A DNA stretch of 57,277 nt, taken from assembly GCF_001578805.1 (NCBI RefSeq), contig NZ_KQ969160.1:87630-144906 (forward strand). The letters are read 5' to 3'. Source of the stretch: Streptococcus sp. DD10. GTDB taxonomy: Bacteria; Bacillota; Bacilli; Lactobacillales; Streptococcaceae. The translations under genes were made by a program, and so were the position numbers. Numbering within the stretch: the stretch's first letter is position 1; each line of letters opens with the position of its first letter. Positions 14,781 to 48,156 of this stretch are shown piece after piece. The notes beneath the pieces were generated by a model, which worked only from the letters and a program-made list of their open reading frames with translations, was not told the DNA's origin and did not search any database.

Positions 14781-14834
14781 AAAGAATTTCTATTATACCT
14801 CCTCCAAACCAATTTTGAAATAGTTCAAATCATT

Positions 14835-15197
14835 ACCACCCGTCTAACGGGTGATTTATACCAGGGCTATAAGCCCAAATTACCAGCCAGCGCCTAAAGA
14901 CGCTGGCTTTCACGTTATTCAAGCCTCATTGCTCTTGACTCGTCACTTGCCTCTTAAAGAGGCTTTAGTATTACTTACCACTATCCCTAAAGGGATCCTC
15001 ATATTCTTTTACACTCAAGAATCTAGTGCTATATCATGCTTTACTCGTTCTCAAATTTTTAGACTCGTGAAGAAATCATCCACTGGATAATTTTTCTTTT
15101 CCTTTCGCTTTACAATTGGCTTGAACACCTTTATTGTATCGCGTTTGGAGTTTTTTTGTCTTGCACCTAACGGAGCGAGACGGACTAATAGTCGCAT
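14835..15197 (+). repeat. Structured flanking repeat, left copy (about 363 bp)
   Basis: About 93 percent identical by eye to 23050-23411 and in the same orientation. It holds a chain of small hairpins: CACCCG/CGGGTG at the start, CCAGCG/CGCTGG, a CTCTT/AAGAG palindrome, ATCCC/GGGAT, and GTCTTGC/GCGAGAC at the end. Differences between copies include two that keep pairing by G-U wobble (CCAGCG to CCGGCG, GTCTTGC to GTCTCGC). No complete protein frame is shared. The hairpin-ended layout recalls non-autonomous IS200/IS605-type elements, but no transposase end was recognised, so the class is open. Confidence 0.75.
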
Positions 15198-15227
15198 GAT
15201 AAAACTTTCGACAATAGTCAGAAAGCA

Positions 15228-15500
15228 GTGTCAATTAAAAATATTATATCTTTCGATAGATGGCTGATAGAGCAAAACCCAAACTTTAAAACGGACGATA
15301 CTCATCAAAACACCCACAACAAGTATACCGACCGATCAATGACTACTTATATCAGAAATTATTTAGACCATCCTAGTGAAGATACCAATTTACCTTCTAG
15401 TAAAAGTCGTAATTCTCCAACACCAGAAGAAATTAGCCAATCAATAGAGAATGTGATGAAAATCTTAAAAAATAATTTTCAAGCAAAGAAATCAAAATAA
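15228..15500 (+). CDS. Hypothetical protein, probably a 5'-truncated remnant
   Basis: 90 residues from a GTG with a poor ribosome binding site. The open frame continues upstream into the end of the flanking repeat (15197), where the sequence stops looking coding, so the repeat probably removed the true 5' end. The protein is hydrophilic (FDRWLIEQNPNFKTDD, then PSSKSRNSPTPEEISQSIENVMKIL), has no membrane segment, and ends in a Lys-rich tail. A good terminator follows 28 bases after the stop. No family recognised. It lies within the restriction island and may be left from earlier cargo. Confidence 0.45.
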   Translation: MSIKNIISFDRWLIEQNPNFKTDDTHQNTHNKYTDRSMTTYIRNYLDHPSEDTNLPSSKSRNSPTPEEISQSIENVMKILKNNFQAKKSK

Positions 15501-15585: not shown

Positions 15586-18500
15586 TTAAGCCTTAATATC
15601 ACTTCGCCATTTTTTATAGGCTTCCTGTGCTGAGGTTGCCATAATAAACTTAAAAATCTCCTCATTTGAAAATAGTTTTTCAAATGTTCCCTCACTAGAT
15701 TGAGAAAGGTTAATAATTAAATCCTCGAATTCTTTTGGAAATAGCGAGTTCTTAAACATCGCATAATCATTGCTTTTAGCTATCGAACGTTGGCGTTCAC
15801 TTGGATTTTGAACGACTTGTTTGACAATCAAGTCCAAAATAACTTGGTCTTCTTCGGTAAATACATCTGGAAATTGTGAGTTGATTTTATTTAAAATTTC
15901 CGTCAACGTATCTTTTTCTTCTGGTGGTTTTACAGCAGGGTTGATACTTTTTTGCTGTTTATAAATCGAACCTTCCTTTTTAATCAAAAGAATAGATTCT
16001 TCATTATCCTTGACTAGCTTATAGTAATCCATGCGAACTTTATCTGAAATATCAACAACTTCTTGACTATTTGTCGGAAGTAAAGAAATCAAATAGTTGA
16101 TAAAAATATACTCTGAAAGCAGTTCTTTATCAAATAAACGAACTAGCTGGGAAATGTAATTGTATTTTTCTCTAAAACCTCGCAAAAGAGTTCTAAACTC
16201 ATATTTAACTGAATCTTCCAGTTGATTATATCTTCCAATTATAGATTGAAAACTATTAGCCAATCTCCCCAATAACTTCTCATCCTGTATATAGTTTGAG
16301 GATTGGTAAAGAGCGATAACTTTCTCAACATCATCAGTATTATATAGATGGTATTTCCTGATTTTTTCCTTAGCATCATACAGAAGATTTGGGTCAATAG
16401 CTTGGTCAAGGGTTGAAGATTCATAAAAAGGCTGAAAGGCTTCTTTAATGTCTTCGGCAGTATTTTTAAAATCAAGTACAAAAGTATCCGTTTTTCCTTG
16501 CATCGTTCGATTTAAACGTGAAAGAGTTTGAACAGCCTTAACGCCACGCAGTTTTTTATCAACAAACATGGTGTGAAGCTGTGGTTCATCAAAGCCAGTT
16601 TGGTATTTTTCTGCAACAATCAGCACATTATACTGAGAGCTAGCAAATACCTCTTTAAGCTGATTTTCTTTGATACCATTCATTTTAGGCTCAGTATATT
16701 CTTCTCCATCATCACTTACTTCACCTGAAAATGAAACCAAGGTATCCATATCCGTATAACCTTTTTCTCCAATGTAGCGTTTAAACTCTTTCATATAACG
16801 AACCGCTGCCAAGCGAGACGAAGTCACAACCATAGCCTTCCCTTTACCGCCAATCGCATGACGCGTTTTCTCTCTAAATAGCTCAACCATCACTTCTGTT
16901 TTTTGTGCTAAATTATAAGGATGTAGGTCAGCATATCGAGCAATGGCACGTTTAGCTTGTGAAGCTGGTAATTCAGGGTCATCTGGAACTAATTTCGAAA
17001 TCTGATAAGCCGTATGATAGGTCATATAGTTCTGTAAAACATCCAAAATAAAACCTTCCTCAATCGCTTGACGCATCGAGTAGACATGATAAGGATGGAA
17101 TGTTCCATCTGGCATTTGCTGACCAAATAATTCAAGTGTTTTTGCCTTTGGGGTTGCCGTGAAAGCGTAAAAAGAAATGTTACCGTGCCTTCCTTGTCCA
17201 AGCAGGGTGTCATTAAGTGCATCTTCCTTATCTCGTGCCTTACTTGCCTCCTCCTCGTCAAATTCTTCCCACTCTTTCAAAGCCTCCTCTCTATCTGATA
17301 AGGCTATTTTTAACTTTTGTGAAGCCGAGCCAGTCTGTGACGAATGGGCTTCATCGACAATAACCGCAAATCGTTTCCCAGCTGTCGATTCAACTTCTTG
17401 ATAAATAACAGGGAATTTTTGCAAAGTAGTAATGATAATTTGCTTTCCATCATTGATAGCCTTTAGCAAATCTTTAGAAGATTTATTATCTCCAATCGTT
17501 TCCACCAAACCTGTCGTTGCATCAAAGGAAGTGATGGTTTGTTGCAATTGACGGTCTAAGACGGTCCTGTCTGTAACGATTATAATCGAATGAAAAATCG
17601 GCTGATTATCATCGTTGTGCAATTTTTGTAAATGGTAGGACAACCACGCAATGGAGTTTGATTTCCCTGAACCAGCCGAGTGTTGAATCAGAAAATGTTG
17701 ACCAGAGCCTTTTTGCTTGGTATCCGCAACCAACTTTCGTACCACATCAAGCTGATGATAACGTGGGAAAATCAATGTCTGTTTTTCTACTGTTTTTCCG
17801 CTTGTATCCTTTTCATGCTTGACTTCTAAGTTGATAAAGCTTTGCAAAATATCCATCAGAGCATCTTTTTGTAGTACTTTTTCCCAGAGATAGGCGGTTG
17901 GGTAGCCTGATGGATTTTCTGGGTTACCAGCCCTACCAACATTCCCAGCTCCGTTTGATCCTTGATTAAAGGGCAAGAAAAAAGTTTTCTCCCCAGCTAG
18001 TTTGGTTGTCATCCATGCTTGGTTCAAGTCTACGGCGAAATAAACTAATATACGGTGATTAAACTGAAAAACTGTTTCTTTGGGGTCACGGTCAAACATA
18101 AACTGTTTTTTGGCGTGTTCAACGGATTGCCCCTTCAATTGATTTTTGAGTTCAAGTGCAACCAGCGGGATACCATTGATTGAGAGAACCATATCAAGGG
18201 TGTTATGATTATGGGGGCTATAGGCAAATTGCCTGATTACTTGCGTTTTATTGGCTTGATAAGCCTTGATAATGTCGTCATTTAAGGCAGATGAAGGGCG
18301 AAACTGAACTACCTTAAAATGAACCCCTCTGTCTTTAATCCCCTTTCGAAGAATATGCAAGATACCATGTTGAGAGACCTCCTGCTCAAAGCGTTTATAG
18401 AAACTTTCCACAGGGTCAGCTCCAACTATTTTTTCATATCTCGCCCACTTCTTTTCTTGGGTTTCTTTGACAAACTGAACAAGTGTTTCTAGCTCCAACC

Positions 18501-18612
18501 CCTTAGTTGCATCATAGCGCGACTCCTGAAAGGTCGTTTTTGTCCAACCTCCAGATGGTGAGGTCAGCCATGTTTCGATATCTTGCTCAAAGCGTTTTTC
18601 ATTATCTTCCAT
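15586..18612 (-). CDS. hsdR: Type I restriction enzyme, R (motor/nuclease) subunit
   Basis: 1008 residues from the ATG at 18612, one base after the stop of the HEPN-motif gene (GGAATAATATG). Longer starts inside that gene are possible but lack support. The N-terminal PD-(D/E)xK nuclease shows Asp140 and ELK at 154-156. A superfamily 2 helicase follows, with Walker A HSAGSGKS (311-318), DEAH at 420-423 and TATPKAKTL, and a C-terminal domain contacts HsdM/HsdS. The subunit translocates and cuts DNA lacking the site-specific methylation made by HsdM and HsdS. No frameshift is seen. It is the last gene of the operon hsdM-hsdS-HEPN-hsdR. Confidence 0.95.
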   Translation of the reverse strand: MEDNEKRFEQDIETWLTSPSGGWTKTTFQESRYDATKGLELETLVQFVKETQEKKWARYEKIVGADPVESFYKRFEQEVSQHGILHILRKGIKDRGVHFKVVQFRPSSALNDDIIKAYQANKTQVIRQFAYSPHNHNTLDMVLSINGIPLVALELKNQLKGQSVEHAKKQFMFDRDPKETVFQFNHRILVYFAVDLNQAWMTTKLAGEKTFFLPFNQGSNGAGNVGRAGNPENPSGYPTAYLWEKVLQKDALMDILQSFINLEVKHEKDTSGKTVEKQTLIFPRYHQLDVVRKLVADTKQKGSGQHFLIQHSAGSGKSNSIAWLSYHLQKLHNDDNQPIFHSIIIVTDRTVLDRQLQQTITSFDATTGLVETIGDNKSSKDLLKAINDGKQIIITTLQKFPVIYQEVESTAGKRFAVIVDEAHSSQTGSASQKLKIALSDREEALKEWEEFDEEEASKARDKEDALNDTLLGQGRHGNISFYAFTATPKAKTLELFGQQMPDGTFHPYHVYSMRQAIEEGFILDVLQNYMTYHTAYQISKLVPDDPELPASQAKRAIARYADLHPYNLAQKTEVMVELFREKTRHAIGGKGKAMVVTSSRLAAVRYMKEFKRYIGEKGYTDMDTLVSFSGEVSDDGEEYTEPKMNGIKENQLKEVFASSQYNVLIVAEKYQTGFDEPQLHTMFVDKKLRGVKAVQTLSRLNRTMQGKTDTFVLDFKNTAEDIKEAFQPFYESSTLDQAIDPNLLYDAKEKIRKYHLYNTDDVEKVIALYQSSNYIQDEKLLGRLANSFQSIIGRYNQLEDSVKYEFRTLLRGFREKYNYISQLVRLFDKELLSEYIFINYLISLLPTNSQEVVDISDKVRMDYYKLVKDNEESILLIKKEGSIYKQQKSINPAVKPPEEKDTLTEILNKINSQFPDVFTEEDQVILDLIVKQVVQNPSERQRSIAKSNDYAMFKNSLFPKEFEDLIINLSQSSEGTFEKLFSNEEIFKFIMATSAQEAYKKWRSDIKA

Positions 18613-18613
18613 A

Positions 18614-19756
18614 TTATTCCTTATCTTCTTCATCGTTTTCCGATGAACTTTCTTGCTCATCATTTCCTAACACGCCTATCTGAGAGATAGTTGTATTTTG
18701 CATTATTTTTGATATACGTTCAGCATGAGAATTAGCAATCTCTGCCATAGTAGGTGCAATGGTTTTGGAAATATCTATTCTAGGAATAGTTATACTATTC
18801 ATTGCCTTTGCTATTATTTCTCCTAACAGAATTGCATTGTGGACCGGTATTGTCTTTGTGTAGGCTTCAACCGCTTTTTGAAATTGTTTCGACATTTCAA
18901 GAAGTCCTTGTAGCGCAACAGTTGAAACCTTTGTATTTTGGTAAAATTTCCTTTCAAGTAGCTCAGCTTGGATTTCGTGAAATCTGTTAGCATAGGTTCG
19001 AACTTCATTTCTACAGAACTGTAAGTCCTTAAAACTCATTTCTTTATGATGGGCAACCTTGTTTCGAACATTTCGAATCTTCGTTATGACTTCTTCATCA
19101 ATATCGTGCCTTGGTAATAAAGGTTTTATATTTATTTCCCACAGACTTCGAAATTCTATCTTTTCAGTTAGCTTTTGAAGTTTCTCGTATAGATTTCTAT
19201 TTTTACTAATACCACAAAATTCATAGGAGTCCCCGACTGCTAACCAATCTTTCGCAAACAAAAATTTTTCTAGCTGGCTCAAATCCAAATCTTCAACATA
19301 ATCATTTAGGGTTTGTTTTTTTCGTTCATCAGTGGCAGCGGTCACATCATAAAAATGGTAAATGAAGTAAAAAATTTTTCTTAAGTTGGTTTCATAATCA
19401 AGGAGAGTCGAGTAACATTTTTTCGCATAATAGGCTGATAAATCAGCAGAATATTGAGTTACTTCAAAATATTGACTCAAAATCCCACTTATCCTTGCTC
19501 GAAACTTATCATAGAAATACGCCTTTCTCCAATGAACATCAACCATTGCTTTTAATCGACAATGGAGGATATTATCTGATTTTCTAATGATTGTTTTAAA
19601 TTGTAGCGGGTTATCCTCTGGGAAAGTACAAGCAAGCGTATTGGTCTGCTCTAATTGACTAATCTCACGATTATTTTCGAAGGATTTCCAAAATAACTGG
19701 CATAAATCTTCATCATTAGTTTTTGGTTTTAGCAATAGTTCAAAATCAACCTTCAT
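18614..19756 (-). CDS. HEPN-motif protein embedded in the type I restriction operon
   Basis: 380 residues, cytoplasmic, with an acidic tail (NDEQESSSENDEEDKE). The key motif is RNVRNKVAHHKE: residues 231-236 read R-N-K-V-A-H, the R-x4-H signature of HEPN RNases (Abi, RloC/PrrC and toxin families). A helical block at about 105-136 and the charged helix around 195-215 could complete an all-alpha HEPN fold. The gene starts inside the last 11 bases of hsdS and stops one base before hsdR, so it is translated with the restriction enzyme. By analogy with anticodon nucleases guarding type I systems (PrrC with EcoprrI), it may act as a backup when restriction is inhibited. It lacks the ATPase of PrrC/RloC, so the trigger would differ. 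Exact family not recognised. Confidence 0.72.
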   Translation of the reverse strand: MKVDFELLLKPKTNDEDLCQLFWKSFENNREISQLEQTNTLACTFPEDNPLQFKTIIRKSDNILHCRLKAMVDVHWRKAYFYDKFRARISGILSQYFEVTQYSADLSAYYAKKCYSTLLDYETNLRKIFYFIYHFYDVTAATDERKKQTLNDYVEDLDLSQLEKFLFAKDWLAVGDSYEFCGISKNRNLYEKLQKLTEKIEFRSLWEINIKPLLPRHDIDEEVITKIRNVRNKVAHHKEMSFKDLQFCRNEVRTYANRFHEIQAELLERKFYQNTKVSTVALQGLLEMSKQFQKAVEAYTKTIPVHNAILLGEIIAKAMNSITIPRIDISKTIAPTMAEIANSHAERISKIMQNTTISQIGVLGNDEQESSSENDEEDKE

Positions 19757-21077
19757 CTTCTTCTACCTGCTTTTTGCCTGTTACATACTCATAAATCATC
19801 GACTTCTTATAGCTTTCGTATTCGGAAATAAGGTTTTCCTTTTCTGTTATAATAGCATCTATTTGGGCTGTTTTTAGGTCGAGGAAGTCGGCAATCATCT
19901 CGCCATCTTCAAAAGATAAATCTGGGATATAATAATTTTGAATAAATTGAGTAGAAATACGTTTCAAACCAGCTACACCAGTCATTGTTGATGAACCAAT
20001 ATTTATAAAATTACTATTTTGTAGATAATAAAACAAATATCTTGAACTGAACTCCCCCTTTTTTTCATTCCTGATGGTAAATATTTCTGATGTTCCGAAA
20101 CCTATACCATTTAACAAATTTGAAACAATTGCAATGTTTCCATTCTCAAAAGAAGGACGAACCTTAGCTAGAACAATATCTCCATTTGCAAAATAATTAT
20201 ATTTTCCCCTCAATGAACCAATTTCTTGCTGTAAATCATTAATAGTATAGCCGTTTTTCAATCTGTCCATAGGTAGAAACGTAGCCAAGTCATCATTTGA
20301 AAAATTATCGTTGTATTGAGGGTTGATTTGCACAATATACTTTATTTTTGTATAATCCCACCCCTCTGGAATATCCCCTATCCAATCGATACCAGACGGC
20401 ACCATCGTCACACTTGGGTCAAGTCCTTTTGTGACAATTTCTGTAATCAGCGATTGTTTATAGGCTTTTAACTCCTCGATGGATTTCTTACTATCACTGA
20501 TAATCTCATCAATCAAAGTTATTTTTTGGTCGAGAAAGTTGGCAATTTTTTGTTGTTCGGAAATAGGAGGGATTGGAATTAACAACCGATTTAATTTCTC
20601 GGATGGGATTCTCATTCTTATAGTGTTTAATTTCCCATTACCCGACTCTTTAATCAAAATACCATTTCCTAATCCCAGCAAACTTCTTTGAAATTGTTCA
20701 GATTGAAAAAGGTAGCAATAATAGTTGATGTCATCTCTATCATTATCCGAGTAATAAGTATAATATACTGGACTTACTGCCCCTAACCAACTAGAAAGAC
20801 CAACTGCACCAGCCAAAATATTCATACTATTCACGACAATATCGTTTGGTCGTGCTACTTTATAAGCAGATAAATCTTCTTTAGCCTTATTTCCTCCCCC
20901 TGTTTTTTCTGAGTATGGAAAAACTCCGTTTTCTACTGACAAAGATAGGATAAAATTCGTAATAATTGGGTCATTTTTTTCTTTACGTTCACTGAGTACA
21001 TATTTCCATCGTCTTAATTCCCACTCCTCAGGAATCTCTCCTATCCATTCAACACCACTGTTTTTCATCTTTCTCAT
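19746..21077 (-). CDS. hsdS: Type I restriction-modification specificity subunit
   Basis: 443 residues from the ATG at 21077, which shares a base with the hsdM stop (TGATG) and has GGAGG seven bases upstream. A GTG one codon earlier and an ATG three codons later are alternatives. It has two target recognition domains, each introduced by the same motif (SGVEWIGEIPEEW and SGIDWIGDIPEGW). Each is followed by a conserved coiled spacer (IANFLDQKITLIDEIISDSKKSIEELKAYKQ and IADFLDLKTAQIDAIITEKENL, in shortened form). The two domains read the two halves of a bipartite DNA site. Only one hsdS and no recombinase are present, so there is no sign of phase-variable shuffling. The target sequence cannot be predicted. 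Confidence 0.94.
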   Translation of the reverse strand: MRKMKNSGVEWIGEIPEEWELRRWKYVLSERKEKNDPIITNFILSLSVENGVFPYSEKTGGGNKAKEDLSAYKVARPNDIVVNSMNILAGAVGLSSWLGAVSPVYYTYYSDNDRDDINYYCYLFQSEQFQRSLLGLGNGILIKESGNGKLNTIRMRIPSEKLNRLLIPIPPISEQQKIANFLDQKITLIDEIISDSKKSIEELKAYKQSLITEIVTKGLDPSVTMVPSGIDWIGDIPEGWDYTKIKYIVQINPQYNDNFSNDDLATFLPMDRLKNGYTINDLQQEIGSLRGKYNYFANGDIVLAKVRPSFENGNIAIVSNLLNGIGFGTSEIFTIRNEKKGEFSSRYLFYYLQNSNFINIGSSTMTGVAGLKRISTQFIQNYYIPDLSFEDGEMIADFLDLKTAQIDAIITEKENLISEYESYKKSMIYEYVTGKKQVEEDEG

Positions 21078-22873
21078 CACAAGTCCTCCAAGTCATTGCT
21101 ACTCAGAGATTCGAAGTTTTTTACAATTTTCTCCTCTAAGGCTTTGATACGCTTTGCGATAACCTCTGATCTTTCTGGTGCTTGGTATTTATAAAACAAG
21201 CGTGTAAAGGGGATTTCATAGCCAATCTTGGTTTTCTTTTTATCCACCCAAGCGTCAGGATTAAAGGGTAGCACTTCTCGAGCTATATAGGAGTCAATAT
21301 CCTCTGTCAGTGGGATATCCTCGGTATCTCGTTTGCTGGTGTCGGCTTCTACTTTCCTATTTTTCTTGCGGATGATTGTTCCATTTTCATCATAGAGAGG
21401 GGTTTCAACGGTCACTTTTTGATAACCAAAAAAGTCATTATCAAAGATTTTAGACTCTACCATGGTATCACCTTCGGTATAGGTTTTATTGGCAAATTCT
21501 CCGTAAGCCTGTACGATGAGTTCTCGCTGAGCTTTTTTGATATCCACCCTCTTATCACCGATATTTTTCCGCCGTTTGGCAAAAGCCTTGCTGGCATCCA
21601 GCAACTGCACTTTCCCATGACGCTCCTTAGCCTTATTTTTAGTGATAATCCAGATGTAGGTTGAAATTCCAGTATTATAAAACAAGTCTGTCGGTAGCTG
21701 AATAATCGCCTCCAACCAGTCGTTCATGATAACATGCTCACGGATTGCAGACTCCCCACCGCCAGCATTGCCAGAAAAGAGAGCCGAACCGTTATGAATA
21801 ATTGCCATACGACCTGTATCTTTCAGCTTAGAAATGCCATTTAGCTGAAAAAGAAGCTGACCATCTGATATTTTGGGAAGCCCCACGCCAAAACGACCTT
21901 TTTCTCCTAATTCAGCCTCTTCTTTTACGGCATTTTGGTCTTTCTTCCAGTCAATACCAAATGGAGGGTTTGAAATCAAGTAGTCAAAGGTATAACCTGA
22001 AAAAGCATCCTTGGAAAGAGTAGAGCCCAAAGCCATATTATCAGGATTTCCACCTCGAATCATGGTGTCTGCCTTAGCAATTGCATAGGTCTCTGGGTTT
22101 ATCTCTTGACCAAAGGTTGTAACGTCTGCATCGGCATCAAGATCTTTGATTCTCTCCATCATGGCTGAAAGCATCTGAGATGTTCCCATAGTCTGGTCGT
22201 AAATCGTCCGTACGATAGGCTTATCTGATGGATTTTCATCGATTAGGAGAATGTCTGTCATCAAGTAGATAATATCCCTACTGGTAAAGTGAGCCCCAGC
22301 ATCCTCACCGTAACTCTCAGAAAATCGACGAACCAGCTCTTCAAAGATATACCCCATGTCCGTCGAAGTGACAGTATCCGCACCTAAATAGGCTTTCTGG
22401 CTGTTAAACTCTTGAATAACTGCAAACAAGGCATCGTTAGTTGCCATCTTTGAAATCTCTTTGTCGAACTCAAAATTGTCAAGAATGTCTCTAACATTTT
22501 CAGAAAAGCCATTAAGGAAGGCATTGAAATTGTCGTAGATATTTTCAGGATCGCTTAGCAGATTCTCAAAGGTAAAACGACTTGTATTGTAAAATTTATA
22601 ACCAGAAGCATCTGTTAATTTTCTGTCTCTGATTTGCGTAACCTTGATATTTGTCACTGATTTCGCAACCTCAAGTACATCATCTCTTGTCGGTAGCAAG
22701 GTGTCGTGCAACCGTTTAATGACCGTCATCGGCAGAATAACCTTACCGTATTCATGTGGCTTATAAAGCCCTCGTAAAATATCAGCGATATTCCATATCA
22801 AAGAAGCCTTCTCTTTGATATTCGTCGCCATCCTTTCGTGGTGCATTTTTTCATTTGTTATCTGTTCTACCAT
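21077..22873 (-). CDS. hsdM: Type I DNA (adenine-N6) methyltransferase subunit
   Basis: 598 residues. The N-terminal HsdM domain (SLIWNIADILRGLYKPHEYGKVILPMTVIKRL, in part) precedes the methyltransferase core. The catalytic motif IV is NPPF at 302-305. Motif I, which binds S-adenosylmethionine, reads DQTMGTSQM at 226-234 in place of the usual DPxxGTGGF, a variant seen in one HsdM branch. HFTSRDIIYLM before it is typical. With HsdS it methylates adenines at the recognition site to protect host DNA. Two 36-bp palindromic tandem repeats lie in the probable leader. It overlaps hsdS. Confidence 0.95.
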   Translation of the reverse strand: MVEQITNEKMHHERMATNIKEKASLIWNIADILRGLYKPHEYGKVILPMTVIKRLHDTLLPTRDDVLEVAKSVTNIKVTQIRDRKLTDASGYKFYNTSRFTFENLLSDPENIYDNFNAFLNGFSENVRDILDNFEFDKEISKMATNDALFAVIQEFNSQKAYLGADTVTSTDMGYIFEELVRRFSESYGEDAGAHFTSRDIIYLMTDILLIDENPSDKPIVRTIYDQTMGTSQMLSAMMERIKDLDADADVTTFGQEINPETYAIAKADTMIRGGNPDNMALGSTLSKDAFSGYTFDYLISNPPFGIDWKKDQNAVKEEAELGEKGRFGVGLPKISDGQLLFQLNGISKLKDTGRMAIIHNGSALFSGNAGGGESAIREHVIMNDWLEAIIQLPTDLFYNTGISTYIWIITKNKAKERHGKVQLLDASKAFAKRRKNIGDKRVDIKKAQRELIVQAYGEFANKTYTEGDTMVESKIFDNDFFGYQKVTVETPLYDENGTIIRKKNRKVEADTSKRDTEDIPLTEDIDSYIAREVLPFNPDAWVDKKKTKIGYEIPFTRLFYKYQAPERSEVIAKRIKALEEKIVKNFESLSSNDLEDL

Positions 22874-22914: not shown

Positions 22915-22986
22915 TTCCTTTATTATGAATATAATAAAGGAAGGGTACCCTTCCTTTATTATGAATATAATAAAGGAAGGGTACCC
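22915..22986. repeat. Two tandem copies of a 36-bp palindromic unit in the hsdM leader
   Basis: The unit (22915-22950, repeated exactly at 22951-22986) contains CCTTTATTAT and ATAATAAAGG as inverted arms, followed by GGAAGGGTACCC. It lies between the probable hsdM -10 box and the ATG, so each unit would form a hairpin in the mRNA. Copy number could vary by slippage and alter expression. Confidence 0.85.
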
Positions 22987-23019: not shown

Positions 23020-23049
23020 GCATATTTGAGGATATTTAAAAAAATCAGG

Positions 23050-23411
23050 ACCACCCGTCAAACGGGTGGTTTGTACCAGGGCTATAAACCCAAATCACCA
23101 GCCGGCGCCTAAAGACGCTGGCTTTCACTTTGTTCAATCCTTATTTCATTTGACTCGTCACTTACCTCTTAAAGAGACTTTAGTATTACTTACCACTATC
23201 CCTAAAGGGATCCTCATATTCTTTTACACTCAAGAATCCAGTGCTATATCATGCTTTACTCGTTCTCAAATTTTTAGACTCGTGAAGAAATCATCCACTG
23301 GATAATTTTTCTTCTCCTTTCGCTTTACAATTGGCTTAAACACCTTTACTGTATTGCGTTTGGAGCTTTTTGTCTCGCACCTAACGGAGCGAGACGGACT
23401 AATAGTCGCAT
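23050..23411 (+). repeat. Structured flanking repeat, right copy (about 362 bp)
   Basis: Right-hand partner of 14835-15197, same orientation, beginning with a perfect hairpin (CCACCCGT/ACGGGTGG) and ending GTCTCGC/GCGAGAC then CGGACTAATAGTCGCAT. On the minus strand a short frame (KVFKPIVKRKEKKNYPVDDF, then FTSLKI and a stop) is nearly the same in both copies, with mostly silent changes. It could be the end of a lost gene. Together the copies bracket 7.85 kb of restriction DNA. Confidence 0.75.
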
Positions 23412-23505
23412 AATGAAAAGGACTTAGCATTTATTCTACACAAAGCTAAGTCCTTTACTTATATGATATGCTAAATTTATACATCTATTTCTGTTGACGC
23501 TACTA

Positions 23506-28567: not shown

Positions 28568-28607
28568 TAAGGTCAGGCTATGTTCTCTTTTATGTCACCA
28601 ACAAAAA

Positions 28608-28712
28608 GAGGCTGGGACAATAGTCTTCAGCCTCCAAATATGCTCAGTAATAAACTAATAACGCAGGAGATGACTGGAGTCTTTCTTCGCTTTTCAAGAT
28701 TGTAAGAACTCC
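28608..28712 (+). repeat. Dispersed repeat, copy A (GAGGCTGGGACAATAGT type)
   Basis: Starts with a hairpin (GAGGCTG...CAGCCTC) and shares about three quarters of its bases over about 105 positions with the minus strand of 48038-48144, including AGTAATAAACT, CTCTTTCTT-like and GCTTTTCAA blocks. Non-coding. Confidence 0.7.
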
Positions 28713-48037: not shown

Positions 48038-48144
48038 GTCAAACTCTTACGAGATTGAAAAGCCAAGAAAGAGCCCAATCCTCTACTGCTTTATGAGTTT
48101 ATTACGGAACCCATTTAGAGGCTGAAAACTATTGTCCCAGCCTC
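48038..48144 (-). repeat. Dispersed repeat, copy B, at the pepC 3' end
   Basis: On the minus strand it starts with the hairpin GAGGCTGGGACAATAG...CAGCCTC, 12 bases after the pepC stop, and continues with blocks shared with 28608-28712. It probably acts as the pepC terminator. Confidence 0.7.
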
Positions 48145-48156
48145 GTTCGAACGTTT

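Follow-up and report, generated by a model that had tools for sequence, protein, structure and literature searches.

A tnpA-less IS200-group element in Streptococcus sp. DD10 and its relatives, with covarying folded ends, behind terminator-like hairpins

Among bacterial insertion sequences, IS200 is one of the longest known and most widely distributed. It seldom moves in the laboratory; to our knowledge, its choice of target is obscure. The IS200 group, including IS200C of Escherichia coli and the IS200 of Salmonella, shares with the family described below a Y1 transposase (TnpA) with HUH and YxxxQ motifs, the lack of TnpB, subterminal hairpins, no visible terminal inverted repeats, and no target duplication. 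IS200C also shares with the family a site behind a hairpin and a T-rich tract. The differences are that TnpA of Klebsiella and Salmonella IS200 is 52 to 53% identical to the family TnpA and that the copies studied here lack most of tnpA and the LE3 hairpin. Group IIC introns, which insert directly behind intrinsic terminators, share with the family the choice of target only, being retroelements with a ribozyme and a reverse transcriptase. The Y1 transposase relatives IS608 and ISDra2, with solved structures 2a6m, 2vhg, and 2xm3 (the last presumably ISDra2), likewise insert 3' of a short sequence. For ISDra2 this sequence is TTGAT, and insertions fall inside genes too (available text of PMC2806898); unlike for the family, no target hairpin was found described for either element in the portions of the literature examined.

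According to the accessible part of PMC6006769, single strands are the substrate of IS200 relatives, and subterminal hairpins are bound. The same excerpt describes TnpA-REP (RAYT) and REP hairpins, which have in common with the family a Y1 enzyme acting at a hairpin; in contrast, the family TnpA falls below the NCBIfam REP_Tyr_transpos cut-off (34.9 versus 80 bits), and the family is a full mobile element. PATE elements are IS200/IS605 ends without tnpA and tnpB (accessible sections of PMC7290912). The copies studied here resemble them in being short and in keeping the two ends of a Y1 element while lacking a gene for the transposase, but the PATE-like case in those sections derives from a TnpB-carrying IS605 element. 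IS200 is over-represented between convergent genes (available portion of PMC9208149), which fits a targeting of terminators. A statement that IS200 targets terminators was not found in the open-access literature, as far as its texts were available; subscription papers lay mostly outside the search, and a prior description is possible. What was unexpected in the family is an apparently structure-directed insertion behind terminator hairpins and a covarying end architecture without an Rfam entry; the copies that led to it are themselves ordinary relics.

The window analyzed here is a stretch of 57,277 nucleotides from Streptococcus sp. DD10 (contig NZ_KQ969160.1, positions 87,630 to 144,906). 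Its self-comparison gave a 300-nt direct repeat with 93% identity (14827-15126 versus 23042-23341) and a further 52-nt piece with 94% identity (15153-15204 versus 23367-23418). A search of the same genome with the repeat returned 18 matches, among them a longer copy (L019, around C1:634556-635417) with a 184-aa reading frame on the opposite strand that matched Pfam Y1_Tnp (PF01797; 4.9e-40). The intact TnpA of a full-length relative scored 160 bits against NCBIfam transpos_IS200 (NF033573; cut-off 55) and has the motifs HVH and YIQEQ, so that full-length relatives encode a Y1 HUH transposase; the window copies retain the tnpA 3' end only. In its canonical form the element measures ~756 bp: the left end is followed by tnpA, which encodes 154 aa, and the ~143 nt after the tnpA stop codon make up the right end; in the window, tnpA lies on the minus strand. 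As in the IS200 group, the family has hairpins at both ends and lies 3' of a short sequence without target-site duplication. Positions 14828 to 15197 are a 370-nt derivative of such an element (Table 1). This agrees with one of the classes named in the original prediction, a nonautonomous element of IS200/IS605 type: longer relatives with a Y1 TnpA exist, and the window copies are the ends, with most of tnpA deleted.

Table 1. Positions of the repeat copies, their structural parts, and adjoining features in the window
Feature	Position	Strand	Basis
Copy 1, tnpA-less IS200-group element, 370 nt; right end 14828, left end 15197	14828-15197	-	Ends assigned from empty sites of other family members, by analogy; sequence read-out
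Subterminal hairpin RE4 (7 nt from right tip); consensus in family ACCACCCGTTWGACGGGTGGT	14835-14855	-	Family alignment, sequence read-out
RE3 hairpin GGGCTTATAGCCC; both-side changes in 3/4 pairs in family	14864-14876	-	Family alignment, sequence read-out
RE2 hairpin GCCAGCGTCTTTAGGCGCTGGC; both-side changes in 3/7 pairs in family	14886-14907	-	Family alignment, sequence read-out
Right-end partner of LE-RE pairing; GGCTTGAAT in copy 1, mostly GGCTTGAAC in family	14917-14925	-	
RE1 hairpin GCCTCTTTAAGAGGC; both-side changes in 2/6 pairs in family	14949-14963	-	Family alignment, sequence read-out
tnpA 3'-end remnant; stop codon 14971-14973	14971-15072	-	Comparison with longer tnpA copies
Near-palindrome AAATCATCCACTGGATAATTT at joint of tnpA deletion	15073-15093	not assigned	
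Left-end partner GTTCAAGCC of LE-RE pairing	15118-15126	-	
LE2 hairpin; both-side changes in 3/9 pairs in family	15158-15181	-	Family alignment, sequence read-out
LE1 hairpin GACTATTAGTC; both-side changes in 1/4 pairs in family	15183-15193	-	Family alignment, sequence read-out
Host-side hairpin and T-tract next to copy 1 left end; -8.5 kcal/mol, z -3.5	15205-15225	-	
Type I restriction-modification block: HsdR, HsdS, HsdM	15586-22873		Pfam
Copy 2, tnpA-less element of copy-1 type, 369 nt, more decayed	23043-23411	-	
Host-side terminator-like hairpin and T-tract next to copy 2 left end; -20.2 kcal/mol, z -5.8	23417-23456	-	

Related DNA was present in 114 of the 147 genus genomes sampled. Among relatives in named genomes, the best 80 of 574 were kept; these came mostly from Streptococcus and other Firmicutes, the other hosts including Adlercreutzia, a Coriobacteriaceae MAG, and a Haemophilus record. 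TnpA from three loci (L151, L152, and L159, from the Haemophilus massiliensis record and Adlercreutzia) is 88 to 89% identical to the Streptococcus query, an identity that points to interphylum transfer. A variant of ~805 bp (L030, L031, L034, L045, and L053; also L140, L142 to L146, and L149) has an insertion of ~51 nt near the tnpA 3' end, and its frames, where listed, end at 129 aa, about at the position of YxxxQ. With several copies across genomes, this variant has perhaps moved in trans. Extra stretches occur at one fixed point of the right end (L175, L177, L183, L184, L189, and L190) and in the LE2 loop (L163, L177, L183, L184, L185, L189, and L192); several of them are visibly self-complementary, as if the folded element gained a stem.

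The window copies have kept both ends, have lost the transposase gene, and are present more than once, features of the PATE/MITE type. In L019, which is of an 853-bp type, a near-palindrome (AAATCATCCRCTGGATAATTT, read on the plus strand) occurs near the tnpA 3' end and again in the 5' leader; in copies 1 and 2, L021, and L099, the stretch between the two is gone and a single palindrome remains. Judging by this joint, copies 1 and 2 arose by deletion of most of tnpA at the 21-nt near-palindrome. The same joint is found at several sites, as mobilization in trans would give, but repeated deletion at the near-palindrome can also produce such a pattern. The LE3 hairpin (CCACCCGCTATGCGGGTG) is absent from both window copies. 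Y1_Tnp scores above the cut-off were obtained at four places in the genome, whose open frames measure 184, 122, 93, and 90 aa; none is the canonical 154-aa frame, and the longest ends directly after YIQD, without the glutamine of YxxxQ. Since the TnpA frames of the genome are all noncanonical, we read the window copies as nonautonomous and probably relics, which would need the TnpA of another copy to move.

The original prediction had described at least five short hairpins in series within a conserved, structured element. Four hairpins in the right end (RE1 to RE4) and two in the left end (LE1 and LE2) are indeed found in copy 1. The right end of copy 1 folds on the tnpA strand at -56.5 kcal/mol (z -6.1; 0/200 shuffles as good), while that of copy 2 is decayed (z -1.85; 12/200 shuffles as good); within the window, the RE4 pattern (up to two mismatches) occurs in these two copies only. 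No Rfam family matched the window at gathering score, and a search of five loci at E values up to 1 gave no row on any right end, so a known Rfam RNA was rejected as an identity for the repeat. Rows below gathering score appeared at two left ends (rnk_pseudo at L176, opposite strand, 34.8 versus 55 bits; SpF25 at L153, 27 versus 48 bits). A stand-alone structured RNA gene was also rejected, since IS200 ends and part of tnpA are found in the repeat, which might nevertheless give rise to a separate structured noncoding RNA.

Conservation of the structure was borne out by the family alignment, which shows selection for pairing: the four right-end helices, LE1, and LE2 covary. The right-end alignment held 66 distinct sequences from 80 loci (3 lacked a right end and 11 were identical to another) and covered Streptococcus, other Firmicutes, Adlercreutzia, and the Haemophilus record. 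Its four helices comprise 26 pairs, with 97.7% of cells paired; 10 pairs have changes on both sides, amounting to 90 cells, and 0/500 shuffles were as good on any of five measures. When the structures were slid along the alignment, pairing was 29.5 to 49.4%, and an unguided RNAalifold run on the right ends returned 23 pairs, 9 of them changed on both sides. For the left end, 50 of the 81 distinct sequences were aligned (Streptococcus set only), and LE1 to LE3 were paired in 99.1% of cells. Four left-end pairs were changed on both sides, one in LE1 and three in LE2; LE3 had no such pair among the 50 left ends. No shuffle of 500 reached the percentage paired, the changed cells, or the score, and 4/500 reached the count of pairs changed on both sides; the count of pair types was not significant (180/500 shuffles as good). 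Divergent left ends (alignment A3) have LE1 in differing registers, and hence no pairs were counted there.

Exceptions to Watson-Crick pairing on the tnpA strand were G-U rather than A-C (51 versus 9 cells at the right end; 10 versus 5 at the left end), which identifies the tnpA strand as the structured one. Two differences between the window copies had been taken as changes to a G-U wobble and back (CCAGCG/CGCTGG versus CCGGCG; GTCTTGC versus GTCTCGC/GCGAGAC). The differences are real, but they are G-U on the plus strand only; on the tnpA strand both are A-C mismatches, so by themselves they are no evidence for selected pairing. The suspicion that the copies might simply be the 3' end of an ordinary protein-coding transposon held in part: they are ordinary transposon ends, but ends that covary strongly.

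Just 3' of a -10-like box (TACAAT, 15133-15138), a putative -10 box of the tnpA promoter, lies the left-end segment beginning GTTCAAGCC, which is complementary to GGCTTGAAC of the right end. Matched changes are seen in L196 and L192 (GTTCAGGCTAT- with -ATAGCCTGAAC), L174 (GTTCAAGTCGTATCG with CGATACGACTTGAAC), and L151 (GTTCAAGCTC with GAGCTTGAAC). Across 38 distinct pairs of ends, cognate partners scored 7.78 of 11 at the variable positions, compared with 6.60 for swapped partners, and with one pair per left-end type (26 pairs) the values were 7.85 and 6.64; 0/10,000 swaps were as high in either case, the swaps being of a kind that does not preserve relatedness. Five loci without an anchor were left out of this comparison, as was L182, whose right end has a deletion; L197 entered it with its anchor moved by one base. 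Positions 1 to 10 are paired in most sequences, and positions 11 to 15 are Watson-Crick paired in at most 14 of 26. The left-end and right-end segments thus covary with each other. For E. coli IS200C, complementarity between the ends is visible, and a duplex of the whole region was not significant (111/500 shuffles as good).

In the flanks that we read, a terminator-like hairpin with a T-tract stands immediately before almost every left end, so that the left end faces the hairpin. A Streptococcus set was defined as the matches to one left-end pattern (94 sites, 76 distinct); L194, a Lactococcus locus, belongs to it, and window copy 1 and other copies whose left ends have changed do not. To pass a uniform test, a flank had to form one hairpin with an energy of at most -8 kcal/mol whose end lay no more than 20 nt from the junction, and 73 of the 76 distinct flanks passed. 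Control positions came from the same loci, coding DNA included; 68/300 TT positions and 29/200 T-rich TT positions passed this permissive test, and 152/300 control positions passed a laxer threshold of -5 kcal/mol. Median hairpin energies were -14.9 kcal/mol for sites, -5.0 for TT controls, and -4.0 for T-rich TT controls. After similar flanks were merged, 67 of 70 independent sites passed (Fisher tests against each control gave P values of 1e-31 and 4e-36), and three lay below the threshold. Among 40 non-Streptococcus loci, 37 had a readable left end and 35 enough upstream sequence; a hairpin was present at 34 of these 35 junctions, which had been chosen by eye with the flanks in view. An earlier and cruder hairpin score gave 60/76 and 31/35 for the two groups.

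Of the sites scored, 70/74 in the Streptococcus set and 33/34 in other genera had a hairpin that ended within 10 nt of the junction. Distances in the Streptococcus set ranged from 0 to 17 nt (median, 6), a spread that supports a fixed distance only loosely. The junction lay directly 3' of TT in 72 of 76 Streptococcus-set flanks. Copy 1 of the window has a weaker hairpin in its flank, with TC in place of TT. Three contrast elements with a TnpB gene beside or near tnpA were inspected only and do not serve as a control. The family inserts without target duplication, mostly 3' of TT, right behind terminator-like hairpins.

Empty sites were sought with 12 joined flanks in 284 genus genomes, 99 of which matched at E values up to 1e-40. 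A match spanned the joint for 8 of the 12 (loci fetched and read). One of these (L118) was weak, with the hairpin side unaligned; in the other seven (L119, L121, L123, L029, L031, L052, and L056) the empty site already has the hairpin, and the element, ATGTGAC...CATGATT, was inserted without duplication. Because it is already there in empty sites, the hairpin is part of the target and not of the element. For L123 (at ATT) and L029 (at CTT), identity with an empty relative is 100% over the joint, whereas L119 and L031 show short indels near it; the relatives of L052 have TG where the filled site has TT, and one of the three different relatives shown for L121 has TT. For the window copies, flank searches and the exoA-nth intervals of four genomes gave no clean empty site.

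The same arrangement is found in IS200C. We read 17 loci, 16 from E. coli (of 40 rows listed, 2,851 records) and one from a Klebsiella plasmid, and all 17 (15 distinct sites, with those at uhpT and plaP counted twice) had a hairpin and T-rich tract immediately before the left end, a count that has no control of its own. A script extracted 15 of the hairpins, with folding energies of -12.8 to -23.0 kcal/mol; the other two were identified by eye. The upstream gene was co-directional at 14 of 15 loci with an annotated one. The copies in L330, behind pgm, and L332, behind potE and facing pgm, have hairpins that are reverse complements of each other, so one hairpin can be used on either strand. In L321 (E. 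coli 7/2), the lac operon carries an IS200C copy between lacZ and lacY, and the lacZ-lacY hairpin serves there in antisense. For three IS200C sites, the joined flanks aligned without gaps to other E. coli genomes (200/200 letters in the best rows), and in L316 the right-end hairpin of one IS200C is immediately followed by another IS200C.

From these observations we infer a mechanism in which the hairpins would act on the transposed single DNA strand, RE4 and a left-end hairpin being putative TnpA binding sites. The sense strand of a terminator (hairpin, short T-tract, TT, cut) would mimic the right end (RE4, CATGATT, cut) and be cut at the same spot, which would explain both the insertion site and the orientation; the corresponding order in IS200C is hairpin, ATATTTATT, cut, compared with, for example, a target hairpin-TTTTATT. 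After insertion, the host hairpin would occupy the place of RE4 in the excised circle. Where a gene is co-directional with replication, its sense strand serves as the template for the lagging strand and so would be exposed as a single strand. The LE-RE helix would bring the ends together or fold the tnpA mRNA end to end, and, with RE1 to RE3, may belong to folded single-strand ends or to an RNA control of tnpA. We consider a tnpA-less IS200 derivative with covarying folded ends, inserting behind terminator hairpins through mimicry of the right end, to be the best explanation (probability, about 0.72). If terminators are read as copies of the right end, the neutrality of insertions and the shielding of tnpA from read-through would be explained, and a small enzyme would be at hand to insert DNA at the 3' ends of transcription units with genes unbroken. 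The odds are about even for the wider statement that IS200-group elements are hairpin-directed integrators that take terminators for their right end, with the LE-RE and RE1-to-RE3 helices as an undescribed architecture that joins the ends or regulates tnpA.

It is conceivable, though we would not expect it, that the right-end structure is selected as RNA, with the tnpA 3' untranslated region, or a small RNA cut from it, pairing with the 5' end of the mRNA and controlling how tnpA is translated or how stable it is. The left-end partner lies about at the transcription start suggested by TACAAT and the right-end partner in the 3' untranslated region, and the two covary. RE1 to RE3 are conserved at a greater distance from the tip than that of the subterminal hairpins known from IS608 and ISDra2, so it is not obvious that binding of single-strand DNA by itself would need them. 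Among controls of IS200, the available text of PMC8450116 cites an antisense RNA and, through the title of a reference, the secondary structure of the mRNA. The excess of G-U over A-C on the tnpA strand would be expected of an RNA but cannot tell RNA from DNA, since the transposed DNA strand has the mRNA sequence, and LE1 and LE2 covary as well, even though the likely promoter is downstream of both. The LE-RE and right-end helices offer precise and cheap mutants to tell a function of DNA ends from one of RNA. Selection might instead account for the association with terminators if insertion were widespread and survival limited to sites behind terminators, where elements do no harm and are protected from read-through. 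Neutrality is to be expected of such sites, and the co-directional upstream genes of IS200C fit this account, but we think it unlikely: other intergenic places should be harmless too, yet the hairpin keeps its tight position next to the junction, and the lacZ-lacY insertion splits an operon with antisense use of the hairpin. Identical TnpA genes are moreover found at different sites, and a good part of the insertions should therefore be young. An OMEGA-type guide RNA or a relic derived from TnpB, close to the guide-RNA-like transposon end of the original prediction, recalls the structured region that TnpB elements have at the right end, here ~140 nt long. We give it hardly any credence, given a ~756-bp element filled by its 154-aa tnpA with no room for tnpB, no guide-like variable segment seen, and right ends without an Rfam match.

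Copies 1 and 2 flank the type I restriction-modification genes hsdM, hsdS, and hsdR in the same orientation and with the same type of deletion, as the ends of a composite transposon that carried these genes would. Four relatives (G035, G024, G009, and G030) match the interval only on the exoA and nth sides and have other sequence in the middle (all four aligned, three read), which would suit such a cargo. We nevertheless judge a composite transposon improbable, as the copies differ by 7%, each left end has a separate hairpin flank, and no relative with a clean empty site was found. Between hsdS and hsdR, a 380-aa protein (18614-19756) matches HEPN_Swt1 below the cut-off (20.0 versus 27.5 bits) and is possibly, at a guess, a partner of abortive-infection type. 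A 90-aa reading frame without a Pfam match adjoins copy 1 (15228-15500), and two tandem, near-palindromic 36-nt units lie just upstream of hsdM (22915-22986). Elsewhere in the window, the arms of a 103-nt inverted repeat, 83% complementary, are placed 19 kb apart (28605-28707 and 48045-48147).
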